The translations under genes were made by a program, and so were the position numbers. The notes under the pieces are model-generated. The model was not told the DNA's origin and made no database searches. It saw only the letters and a program-made list of their open reading frames with translations. Positions 3,628 to 51,763 of a DNA stretch of 64,000 bases are shown piece after piece (positions within the stretch are counted from its first letter, which is position 1; each line of letters begins with the position of its first letter). This DNA is from a bacterium SCSIO 12741 (GTDB taxonomy: Bacteria > Bacteroidota > Bacteroidia > Flavobacteriales_G > Salibacteraceae): the NCBI GenBank assembly GCA_024398055.1, contig CP073749.1, positions 4,464,594 to 4,528,593 of the forward strand, in the 5' to 3' direction.

Positions 3628-5018
3628 AATCCGAAATAAATAAATTCTGAAATTTCATTTAAACTCATGATCACCGCTGAAAACGTGGCCACTTGAAAAG
3701 CCAAACGATACCAGGTAGGACGGAATGACTCGGCCAGCTTATTGGTGTTGGGCACAAGCCAGATAAAGGCAAGCGCCAAAACAATACATAAACCCGGATC
3801 AATGGGAAAAGCATTGACATGAGATAGCTGCCAGGAAAAACCCATTCCCGTTTGTCCAAGCATTCCCTTAAATACCTTCAAGGCATCATCAACGCTCGTA
3901 GCTCGGAAAAAGACCCAAGCTATATGAACAAACAAAAAGGTGATCAGCCAGGCTATTGGGTTAGGAAGCCGAACGCCCACCTTTGTCCAAAGTCGATGAA
4001 TCACTGTTGCAATTCCATGCAGAACACCCCAAATGACAAAGGTCCACCCTGCGCCATGCCAAATACCACCTAACAAAAAAGTGAGAAACAGGTTGCGGTA
4101 GGTCTTCCCTTCTCCGGAGCGATTCCCTCCCATGGGAATGTATAGGTAATCTCTAAGAAAGCGGCTCAGAGTCATGTGCCAGCGTTTCCAGAAATCCTGA
4201 ATATCAACCGCCCGGTAAGGTGAATTGAAATTGAAGGGAAGTTTAATGTTAAACATCCAGGCAAGACCAATGGCCATGTCCGTATAACCACTAAAATCAA
4301 AGTAGAGCTGCAAGGTGTAGGAAAGGCTGCTTACCCAGGCATCCTCAAAACTCAACACGGGCAGTTGATCGAAACCCACTGTGGCGAGCCGGGCAAAATT
4401 GTCGGCAATCAAAACTTTCTTGGCCAAACCAATAGAGAAGATATAACTCCCCTTAGCAATGTTGTCCCAACGAATGCGATTAACCCATGACTGGGCAAAT
4501 TGAGGCATCATCTCCAAATGATGGACGATGGGGCCTGCGATGAGTTGAGGGAAAAAGGTGACAAAAAGGGCATAATTGAGAAAGGATGATTCCCGTGTTA
4601 CCCTTTTGTATGAATCCACCAAATAGGCAATTTGCTGAAAGGTAAAGAAGCTGATAGCCAGGGGCAGAATCCAATGCGTGAGTGGTAAAGGCTCCGGCAA
4701 TAGATTCAGAAAATTGATATTGGTAAGTACAAAATCAGTGTACTTAAAAACACCCAACAAAGCCAGGTTAACGACGATACCAAGAATGAGCAATGGTTTG
4801 GATCGCTTAATCACCAATTGCCGCCCCAAAGCATAATTAAAGAACAGGGAAAACAGCAGAACGATGAGAAAGTCAGGCTTCCACCAGGCATAAAAGCCCA
4901 AGGAGGCCAACACCAACCAAGCTTTGGAAAAAGAGGCCGATAATCGACCGAGAATAAAATAGACTCCTACCGCAATGGGAAGGAAAACAAAAATGAATTC
5001 GTAGGAGTTAAAAAGCAC
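3624..5018 (-). CDS. MBOAT family membrane-bound O-acyltransferase (AlgI/DltB-like)
   Basis: 464-aa polytopic membrane protein of the AlgI/PatA/DltB branch. Diagnostic blocks are D-F-W-K-R-W-H (275-281), Y-I-P-M-G-G-N-R (293-300) and G-G-I-W-H-G-A-G-W (317-325), with His321 as the expected catalytic histidine. The length is normal for the family. It carries acyl (usually acetyl) groups from the cytoplasm to a periplasmic sugar acceptor. It lies 9 bp after the broken cysteine desulfurase gene and overlaps the SGNH partner. The gene set glmM-MBOAT-SGNH-GT22 points to O-acylated surface polysaccharide or glycolipid. Confidence 0.9.
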   Translation of the reverse strand: MLFNSYEFIFVFLPIAVGVYFILGRLSASFSKAWLVLASLGFYAWWKPDFLIVLLFSLFFNYALGRQLVIKRSKPLLILGIVVNLALLGVFKYTDFVLTNINFLNLLPEPLPLTHWILPLAISFFTFQQIAYLVDSYKRVTRESSFLNYALFVTFFPQLIAGPIVHHLEMMPQFAQSWVNRIRWDNIAKGSYIFSIGLAKKVLIADNFARLATVGFDQLPVLSFEDAWVSSLSYTLQLYFDFSGYTDMAIGLAWMFNIKLPFNFNSPYRAVDIQDFWKRWHMTLSRFLRDYLYIPMGGNRSGEGKTYRNLFLTFLLGGIWHGAGWTFVIWGVLHGIATVIHRLWTKVGVRLPNPIAWLITFLFVHIAWVFFRATSVDDALKVFKGMLGQTGMGFSWQLSHVNAFPIDPGLCIVLALAFIWLVPNTNKLAESFRPTWYRLAFQVATFSAVIMSLNEISEFIYFGF

Positions 5019-26033: not shown

Positions 26034-26122
<89 letters not shown>

Positions 26123-26125
26123 ACC

Positions 26126-26167
26126 AAAACCCTTCTGTCGACAGACAGAGGGGTTTTCTTTTTTTTT
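26126..26167 (+). terminator. intrinsic terminator of tRNA-Ser
   Basis: A 14-bp stem (26126-26139 with 26144-26157, one G-U pair) closes a GACA loop and is followed by C and nine T. This is a strong rho-independent terminator 5 nt after the tRNA. Confidence 0.88.
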
Positions 26168-26200
26168 AAGCGACGAAAACAAACGTTTTCAAGGAGCGTT

Positions 26201-26572
26201 AAAAAAAAGAAAACCGTTTGGCTTGCCAAACAAAGGGTTTTGATAAAGCCTCCCCCCAACAGGGATCACCGAACAAAGTGAGGTAATCCAAAACGAAAAA
26301 AAAAGAAAACCGTTTGGCTTGCCAAACAAAGGGTTTTGATAAAGCCTCCCCCCAACAGGGATCACCGAACAAAGTGAGGTAATCCAAAACGAAAAAAAAG
26401 AAAACCGTTTGGCGTGCCAAACAAAGGGTTTTGATAAAGCCTCCCCCAACAGGGATCACCGAACAAAGTGAGGTAATCCAAAAACGAAAAAAAGAAAACC
26501 GTTTGGCGTGCCAAACAAAGGGTTTTGATAAAGCTCCCCCAACCGGAATCACCGAACAAAGTGAGGTAATCC
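26201..26572. repeat. tandem repeat, about 3.9 copies of a 94-96 bp unit
   Basis: Four head-to-tail copies start near 26201, 26297, 26392 and 26487. Key points lie 96, 95 and 94 bp apart (the G before AAAACC at 26209, 26305, 26400, 26494). Each unit has a palindrome GTTTGGC-nn-GCCAAAC flanked by AAAACC and GGTTTT. A second imperfect inverted repeat pairs GGATCACC with GGTAATCC. Length differences come from A and C runs. Copies 1-2 have TT in the palindrome loop, copies 3-4 have GT, and copy 4 is the most diverged at its end. No spacers differ between copies, so this is not a CRISPR array. Read on the minus strand each copy is a hairpin followed by an oligo-T run. Confidence 0.92.
26209..26525 (-). 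terminator. four repeated terminator-like hairpins on the minus strand
   Basis: In copy 1, AAAACC (minus strand, from 26241), a 4-nt bulge, GTTTGGC-AA-GCCAAAC and GGTTTT make a stem of 13 pairs (26241-26210), followed by C and eight T (26208-26201). The same layout repeats in each unit. They would stop minus-strand transcripts coming from the right, for example read-through from the secretion operon, before they reach tRNA-Ser. Their tail resembles that of the tRNA's own terminator. Confidence 0.55.
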
Positions 26573-37953: not shown

Positions 37954-38724
37954 TCCTTCAGGTACGTCTTTTTTCAAGAAATACTGAACCGTTCCAAAGT
38001 CTTTAAAGGAAGCGTCTGCTCCACCTATTTGCCAGTTCATGTTCAGCATGGTTTTTACATCCAATAGATTGGCATCGGTAACAGCCAGCAACAAACTGAT
38101 TTGACTTTGCTGAGTTTTAACCTCCGGAATGAAAATCTTAAGTTCCTTGTAAGACATATCGTTTCTGTCGCAGCTGATATCAAACTTCTTACCCGATACT
38201 GGGCCTTGAAAATTGAGCAATACAAAATGGTATTTCTTCCCTCCAAAAAAACGGCTTACATACAGGCTTCGAGAGGTTTGCCCACGCTCCATGGGTAGCA
38301 TAATATTGGTACTCAGGTAGGCAATATTGTCACAGGTAAATCCGGGCCCGGTAACCTGCTCAGAGACATATTTCAACGTATTGATGATTCGGAAAACTAC
38401 CTTTTCTGTATCCAGCTTTCCATCGGTTACCACATAGTTCCGAAGCTCTTTCACTGTCATCATTCCAGGTTCTTCGTCCTCTGCATCCGGCACATTTTCG
38501 TCTTCAGCATTAGGGGTCTGTTCCTGGTAAACTTCTTGATCGCCACGCATTTCAGGCCCACGAAAAGGTTGCTCCGTTTCGTCTGAGTATTCTTCCTCTT
38601 CGTAGTATTCGTCTTCGTAATATTCCTCGTCGTCGTAGTATTCACCATCCCCCTCTTCGTTGCAAGCAACAAGGGCAAACATGGAGAATGCGACCACCAA
38701 CCAAATCCAAAACTTTGTCTTCAA
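37936..38724 (-). CDS. acidic lipoprotein, unknown function
   Basis: 262 aa. A lipobox (F-A-L-V-A-C, Cys21) is followed by a strongly acidic stretch rich in D, E and Y (about 22-100, with repeats like E-Y-Y-E-D-E), then a folded domain (about 100-262) with K-F-D-I-S-C-D and cysteine pairs. I do not recognise the family. The acidic tail could bind cations or keep the domain away from the membrane. It converges with mnmA, sharing 18 bp at the 3' ends. Confidence 0.7.
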
Positions 38725-50969: not shown

Positions 50970-51763
50970 AATGGTCCTTATCCCATATCACTTTGGTTTT
51001 TGTTCTCCCCATAGGGGCCTGGGCTCAGAATGCGAATCTGAATGTATATCTCGGTAATCGCATTTATGAAACCGGAAACTTTGGAGCAGCTGAAAAACTG
51101 TACCTCGATGCTTTAACCACAGACGTGAATAATAATCAAGCTCAATTCAATCTGGGTAATTCCTACTTTCGCCAGGACAAAAAAGACGAGGCAGAGAAGG
51201 TTTTCAGAAAAATGGCTTACAACGAAGAATTGACGGATACACTGAGGGCAAAGGCCTTTCATAACTTGGGCAACATCTTTCTGACTCAAAAAGAGCCTAA
51301 AATTGAAGAAGCCATTGAAGCCTACAAAAGCTCATTGCGACTAAATCCAAAAGACAACGAAACACGCTACAACCTGGCAGTAGCCCAAAAATTGCTGGAC
51401 GCTCAACCTCCTCAAGAACAGCAGCAAAATCAAGATCAACAAAACCAGGATCAGCAGAACCAGGATCAGCAAAATCAAGACCAGCAGGATCAGGAAAATC
51501 AGGACCAACAAAACCAAGAGAATAAATCCGATAAGGAGAAGGAAAATCAAGATCAGGAAAACTCTGACAAATCGGAAGGAGATAAGAATAAGGACGAACA
51601 AAAAGACGAACCTCAAAATGGCGAAGGGCAAGAGCCTAAAATGTCAAAAGAGGATGCTGAACGACTGCTCGAAATGATGGAAAACGAAGAAGAGCAAGTT
51701 CAGGACAAACTGAAAAAGAAGAAAGTAAAGGTTAAGCAAAACTCCATTGAAAAAGACTGGTAA
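50966..51763 (+). CDS. batC: BatC, TPR protein with low-complexity tail
   Basis: 265 aa: a signal peptide, TPR units over about 25-140, then a charged low-complexity region (about 155-225) that begins with N-Q-D-Q-Q repeats and goes on with K, E, D-rich sequence. It ends with a helical, basic tail. Such Gln/Asn and Lys/Glu tails are common in BatC. It overlaps batB by 4 bp and directly abuts batD. Confidence 0.88.
   Translation: MKWSLSHITLVFVLPIGAWAQNANLNVYLGNRIYETGNFGAAEKLYLDALTTDVNNNQAQFNLGNSYFRQDKKDEAEKVFRKMAYNEELTDTLRAKAFHNLGNIFLTQKEPKIEEAIEAYKSSLRLNPKDNETRYNLAVAQKLLDAQPPQEQQQNQDQQNQDQQNQDQQNQDQQDQENQDQQNQENKSDKEKENQDQENSDKSEGDKNKDEQKDEPQNGEGQEPKMSKEDAERLLEMMENEEEQVQDKLKKKKVKVKQNSIEKDW
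51428..51520 (+). repeat. 15-bp tandem repeat coding N-Q-D-Q-Q within batC
   Basis: Residues 155-185 carry four successive N-Q-D-Q-Q units (51428-51487), then D-Q-E, one more N-Q-D-Q-Q and N-Q-E. The DNA units are near-identical 15-mers with CAA/CAG and AAT/AAC swaps. Slippage could change the copy number between strains. Confidence 0.8.

Follow-up and report, generated by a model that had tools for sequence, protein, structure and literature searches.

A tandem array behind tRNA-Ser(gct) in a Salibacteraceae genome as a probable Bacteroidota variant of the tRNA-linked repeats

The tRNA-linked repeats (TLRs) of Escherichia coli have been known since 1978; there are 22 of them, spread over ten loci, and each finishes with the last 18-19 nt of its upstream tRNA or rRNA. 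They are still described without a known function, except for the rRNA-linked RrA, RrB and RrF, which are sRNAs binding Hfq and CsrA (PMC8144298). In E. coli K-12, we found the units at tyrTV and argVYZQ to end in GAGTA|ATCC plus the tRNA 3' end (one in GAGTC|ATCC); their left arm, opposite TAATCC, reads GGATGA or GGATAA. A literature search on repeats behind tRNAs in Bacteroidetes returned only the E. coli repeats and nothing on the element described here.

The window analysed is a stretch of 64,000 nucleotides from bacterium SCSIO 12741 (Bacteroidota; Salibacteraceae), in which TRF detects a tandem array at 26201-26572 with a period of 96, 3.9 copies, 97% matches and a score of 670. The first-pass annotation had described head-to-tail units just behind a tRNA-Ser gene, and TRF bears this out: the units measure 94-96 bp and start at 26201, 26297, 26392 and 26486 (spacing 96, 95 and 94). 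The features of the locus are as follows.

26034..26121, plus strand: tRNA-Ser(gct), the anchor gene (ARAGORN; Rfam RF00005)
26122..26135, plus strand: tRNA trailer forming the P1 5' arm (TACCAAAACCCTT), with its partner AAGGGTTTTGATA in unit 1 (inverted repeat I1; P1 pairing across loci)
26126..26167, plus strand: hairpin A, the intrinsic terminator of the tRNA itself, with T-run (terminator scan, site 26126-26157; folding)
26152..26216, plus strand: hairpin B, T-run (TTTTCTTTTTTTTTAAGCG) against A-run (CGTTAAAAAAAAGAAAA) (inverted repeats I1 and I6; B pairing across loci)
26201..26296, unstranded: repeat unit 1, comprising A-run, hairpin C, linker and hairpin D (TRF; covariance model match, E 1.3e-16)
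26297..26391, unstranded: repeat unit 2 (TRF; repeat analysis; covariance model match)
26392..26485, unstranded: repeat unit 3 (TRF; repeat analysis; covariance model match)
26486..26572, unstranded: repeat unit 4, the most diverged, without spacer after D (TRF; covariance model match)
26214..26233, minus strand: hairpin C of unit 1, antisense terminator-like (terminator scan)
26310-26329, 26405-26424 and 26499-26518, minus strand: hairpin C of units 2, 3 and 4 (terminator scan)
26263..26289, plus strand: hairpin D of unit 1, the boundary hairpin, GGATCACC-GAACAAAGTGA-GGTAATCC, with the invariant C.A mismatch
26359..26385, plus strand: hairpin D of unit 2 (D alignment across loci)
26453..26479, plus strand: hairpin D of unit 3 (D alignment across loci)
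26545..26572, plus strand: hairpin D of unit 4, GGAATCACC..GGTAATCC, partly decayed (sequence; covariance model match)

Copies 1 and 2 are identical, and CGTG replaces CTTG in the loop of copies 3 and 4, as the earlier reading had noticed. Each copy carries the reported GTTTGGC/GCCAAAC palindrome followed by a T-run on the minus strand; the AAAACC/GGTTTT extension claimed for it is real, but its pairing is interrupted by a bulge (CTTT). The units end in TAATCC followed by AAAACG and have only the 5-nt AATCC in common with the tRNA 3' end, no copy of which is present in the array. Local assembly collapse, which had been raised as a possible artefact, is unlikely, because the genome forms one contig of 5.1 Mb and there are differences between the copies. 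No other array with a period of at least 25 and a score of at least 150 was found in 404 kb of the same genome, and a search of the whole genome with the unit sequence returned the array itself, without dispersed copies. Elsewhere in the window, short-period tandem repeats (15-39 bp), perhaps coding, lie at 38578-38643 and 51422-51517.

Relatives of the unit emerged from a covariance model built on an alignment of 17 units from 8 loci. Searching this genome and 60 relatives gave 71 matches in 28 of the 61 genomes, with 1 to 8 matches per genome, tied to tRNA or tmRNA genes; since the loci were gathered partly through the model and many genomes are fragmented, such fractions are biased as prevalences. 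Fifty-eight of the 71 matches lie at most 700 bp 3' of a same-strand tRNA, the first unit usually beginning 66-85 bp past the tRNA. The other 13 comprise nine at contig ends (within about 210 bp, on the tRNA side), two behind tmRNA, one that follows a displaced tRNA 3'-end copy (locus L171) and one that overlaps a tRNA end. Units were found behind tRNAs for Ser, Arg, Pro, Leu, Asp and Val, and in other searches behind His and Met. In the genome of SCSIO 12741 all eight matches are at tRNAs. This genome has 2.8 copies of a 130-bp unit behind tRNA-Arg(tct), and Ser(tga), Pro(tgg) and Pro(ggg) are each followed by a single unit. The suggestion that the unit might sit near other tRNAs thus proved right, for this genome as for many more.

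When the search was widened to 295 genomes from the class, 48 had matches at E<=1e-3, and among new loci from families outside the model 19 of 23 had a same-strand tRNA upstream. To check this without recourse to the model, we searched 257 Gb of genomes and viral contigs for the exact 18-mer of hairpin D (GGGATCACGAAGTAATCC). Of its 33 matches, 22 lie 3' of a same-strand tRNA, all in Bacteroidota records, five are at contig edges or behind an island, and the remaining six look like chance. The idea of a phage-borne element was rejected on the same search, the viral contigs holding one chance match; a D pattern with a fixed 10-nt spacer was likewise abandoned, as it gave chance matches only, since the spacer varies. 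The best of the weak sequence matches in relatives proved to be tandem arrays that directly follow a tRNA or lie at the end of a contig, and Rfam recognised no known family besides tRNA and tmRNA in the loci and the window. A tandem array beside a tRNA, which the first-pass annotation had considered unusual, is instead a recurring feature of the phylum, and the units form a widespread and apparently undescribed family of short hairpin-rich elements that follow tRNA and tmRNA genes throughout Bacteroidota. Arrays often sit at contig ends (G016, G024, G029, G052, G012), which suggests breaks in short-read assemblies and hence under-counting.

Read in the sense of the tRNA, the full element is a cloverleaf in which an outer stem, P1, encloses hairpins A, B and C, followed by a linker and hairpin D; the order is trailer with P1 5' arm, A, B, C, P1 3' arm, linker and D. 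Hairpin A is the tRNA terminator, B pairs the U-run of A with a downstream A-run, C is a terminator in the antisense direction and D is a boundary hairpin of the form GGATCA-(variable stem)-TAATCC. The tandem unit of the window corresponds to the right half of this element (A-run, C, P1 3' arm, linker and D). The arms of P1 pair better with their own partners than with those of other loci (score 22.9 versus 13.0 +- 3.0), as do the arms of B (32.9 versus 17.5 +- 3.9), in a permutation that ignores phylogeny. Direct similarity of the P1 and B arms has no such own-locus effect, so that the pairing reflects covariation and not shared sequence. In D, the pair needed for a perfect palindrome is C.A in 65 of 65 loci. 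Wobble mismatches have a sense-like strand bias in A (53:11) and in B (41:12), a weak one in P1 (23:16) and none in C (27:25); with the bias this uneven, an RNA function of the whole element is not established. A resemblance of the linker to a tRNA 5' half was dropped as a case of mimicry, the inversion between trailer and P1 3' arm together with degenerate 3'-end copies explaining it better.

As for the borders of the element, many single-unit loci have, behind D, a copy of the 3' end of the neighbouring tRNA and then a second terminator. This copy starts exactly at TTCG|AATCC in the T-loop in 14 of the 15 loci where it spans at least 11 nt; only 19 of 65 loci retain at least 10 nt of it after D. 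Near-identical units also occur behind different tRNAs of the same isotype within one genome, namely Ser(gct)/Ser(gga) in G031 (93%), Pro/Pro in G052 (80%) and Ser/Ser in G003 (78%), against a background of about 60%. In the G052 and G003 pairs similarity stops at the last base of D, in the G031 pair it continues into the tandem copies, and the regions upstream of the paired tRNAs are unrelated. Its behaviour is thus that of a discrete copied block. Such copying has been seen so far only between tRNAs with similar 3' ends, and gene conversion between similar tRNA loci could be the source of some of it.

Set against the TLRs of E. coli (RtT/RttR, RF00391, at tyrTV; argVYZQ), the Bacteroidota units have several traits in common. 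Both lie 3' of tRNA genes, with one to five E. coli units per locus and often in tandem; the E. coli unit, like that of some Bacteroidota loci, closes with a copy of the 3' end of the tRNA upstream; and both have the breakpoint in the T-loop (TA|ATCC), GCGAAGC-type mini-hairpins beside GAGTAATCC and a GGATNA...TAATCC frame with a mismatched pair, a frame that we found ourselves in the two E. coli loci and did not take from the literature. Unlike the E. coli repeats, the Bacteroidota units have a compact D, the A-B-C cloverleaf and an antisense terminator, they keep the tRNA 3' copy in a minority of loci, and they possess a P1 stem, of which no counterpart was seen at tyrTV. The window array lies immediately 3' of its tRNA and carries the GGATNA...TAATCC frame, and its units lack the 18-19 nt of upstream tRNA at their 3' end. 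The Rfam model RF00391 (RtT), which finds four units at E. coli tyrTV, matched neither the window (E<=5) nor the relatives. Because this model does not match, P1 is not seen at tyrTV and the tRNA 3' copy is lacking, we describe the array as TLR-like and not as a TLR.

Other described systems are more distant. RrA, RrB and RrF of the E. coli rrn operons are alike in that they, too, are linked repeats that follow a stable-RNA gene and are flanked by two terminators; they differ in lying behind 5S rRNA and in binding Hfq and CsrA, they gave no sequence or model match, and no rRNA-linked copies were seen here. Genomic islands inserted by tyrosine integrases or large serine recombinases use the same target genes and have a tRNA or tmRNA 3'-end direct repeat in common with the unit, beside which they insert directly, whereas the unit is gene-less and measures ~100-170 bp. 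REP/BIME and MITE sequences are likewise short palindromic non-coding units with an imperfect hairpin and a conserved mismatch. In contrast to REP/BIME, the Bacteroidota units are few (1-8 model matches per genome) and tied to tRNA or tmRNA. The terminal inverted repeats common to MITE copies were not found, the P1 arms pairing within a locus and differing between loci; a possible counterpart of the direct target repeat expected of MITEs and integrative elements is the tRNA 3'-end copy that a minority of loci have behind D.

We consider the array to be, with reasonable probability, a Bacteroidota variant of the tRNA-linked repeats: a non-coding unit, discrete and either copied or mobile, that is fixed to the tRNA 3' end and whose right half has been amplified here. 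Its location, fixed geometry, co-varying stems, invariant mismatch in D, T-loop breakpoint and same-isotype copies ending at D are the observed basis of this reading. The complete unit would run from the tRNA 3' end to D, sometimes with a fresh tRNA 3'-end copy starting in the T-loop. It may spread by recombination at the 3' end (T-loop) of tRNA or tmRNA genes, much as integrases use such genes, and it would exchange the tRNA terminator for its own, so that the tRNA stays functional. In the window, the right half (C-linker-D) would then have been multiplied to four copies by slippage or unequal exchange. Against this reading weigh the absence of any enzyme gene from the unit and the fact that just a minority of loci, the window array not among them, keep the tRNA 3' copy; we infer a recombining enzyme, a role for D as folded DNA and the slippage step. 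A broader proposal, which we put forward only tentatively, is that these units might form a class of minimal gene-less mobile elements, spanning the phylum, that integrate at the T-loop of tRNA or tmRNA genes through the folded end D and are mobilised in trans by island recombinases, with the E. coli TLRs as a distant branch.

The first-pass annotation had seen in the array either a transcription barrier on the minus strand or copies of a dispersed repeat derived from a terminator. The latter comes close to the evidence, C and terminator A being inverted counterparts. As for the former, the intrinsic-terminator form (a stem followed by a U-run) does occur four times on the minus strand of the array, each hairpin C having eight pairs, only three of them G-C, followed by TTTTCTTTTT; the scan gave seven sites in total against 2.3 +- 1.4 in shuffles. 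Folded alone, the minus-strand units reach a z of only -0.7 to -1.1, no unusual stability, whereas the plus-strand terminator of the tRNA, with a z of -5.3, is exceptionally stable. One could suppose a bidirectional terminator or insulator in which A stops tRNA transcription and C antisense transcription, the array repeating C for a stronger block on the minus strand. Most loci do have a T-run after C in antisense, and in A the strand bias is of the kind that a sense terminator has (G.T 53 versus A.C 11), but C lacks the antisense bias that this would imply. The next gene in the window (26715, plus strand, DnaJ domain) is co-directional, and convergent neighbours are no commoner at loci with the element (23 of 51) than at those without it (48 of 86). 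A barrier would also leave hairpin D, the tRNA 3'-end copy and the copying between tRNAs without explanation, and we find it unlikely as the main role. The antisense terminator-like hairpins are real parts of the unit and probably serve its own palindromic architecture, not a dedicated barrier, a block to antisense transcription being possible as a by-product.

A small RNA gene, producing either a read-through transcript of the tRNA, bounded by two terminators as in E. coli RrB, or an RNA of D, linker, C and U-run from the minus strand, would recall the Hfq- and CsrA-binding RNAs of E. coli (PMC8144298) and would accord with the sense-strand G.T bias of B and with a D that is fully paired on the minus strand through U.G. 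It is nevertheless quite unlikely: no promoter-like site above chance was found in the region (consensus sigma-70 type only), the units abut so closely that a promoter would hardly fit, P1 and C have no clear strand bias and the stem sequences are not conserved. A purely local, neutral tandem duplication is consistent with the identity of copies 1 and 2, which recent slippage would produce; it is already contradicted by the tRNA-linked model and D 18-mer matches, which place homologues of the unit after numerous tRNAs in a wide range of genera, and it is close to negligible as an explanation. That the units are debris of island integration at tRNA genes, decayed into fossil attachment sites and kept alike by gene conversion, draws on islands that at several loci separate the tRNA or tmRNA from the element and have a copy of the tRNA 3' end at their junction. 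One of these (L205) encodes a tyrosine integrase and an HTH_17 protein, and another (L255) carries genes that we read as phage-like. In the genome of SCSIO 12741, the tmRNA (367747-368139) abuts a large serine recombinase gene, and a 1.9-copy array of a 136-bp unit with D follows a tmRNA 3'-end copy that lies at a distance of about 29 kb. A co-varying cloverleaf, a fixed offset of 66-85 bp and an invariant D are, however, not what debris would preserve, and this origin is very unlikely.

With the tRNA-linked unit as the preferred reading, the same breakpoint and boundary frame across Bacteroidota, a structured body and clear borders turn a local curiosity into a comparative system, in which both origin (T-loop copying) and function (termination, processing or read-through RNA) become directly testable. 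The element is also a recurring neighbour of the sites where genomic islands insert.

Some further observations concern these islands and other repeats of the genome. The tmRNA island extends over about 338.4-367.7 kb of G000:C1 (L272, L282, L188), and a putAbiC gene (putative phage abortive infection) adjoins the displaced tmRNA array on the side away from the island. At L205, a short plus-strand ORF without Pfam match (3915-4136) lies just past D and resembles the N-terminal piece of a second integrase, across the element from the intact one. Behind tRNA-Arg(acg), L091 (G000:C1:4647913-4650986) contains a 31-bp repeat (TTCGGTACTGAATGGGTACTGAATTTCTG) in about 16 copies, which has no sequence relationship to the window unit. 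L100 (G000:C1:2502070-2505150), 3' of tRNA-Leu(tag), carries 2.4 copies of a 131-bp repeat whose unit takes in the tRNA 3' end and terminator, a layout like that of the E. coli TLRs, without hairpin D.
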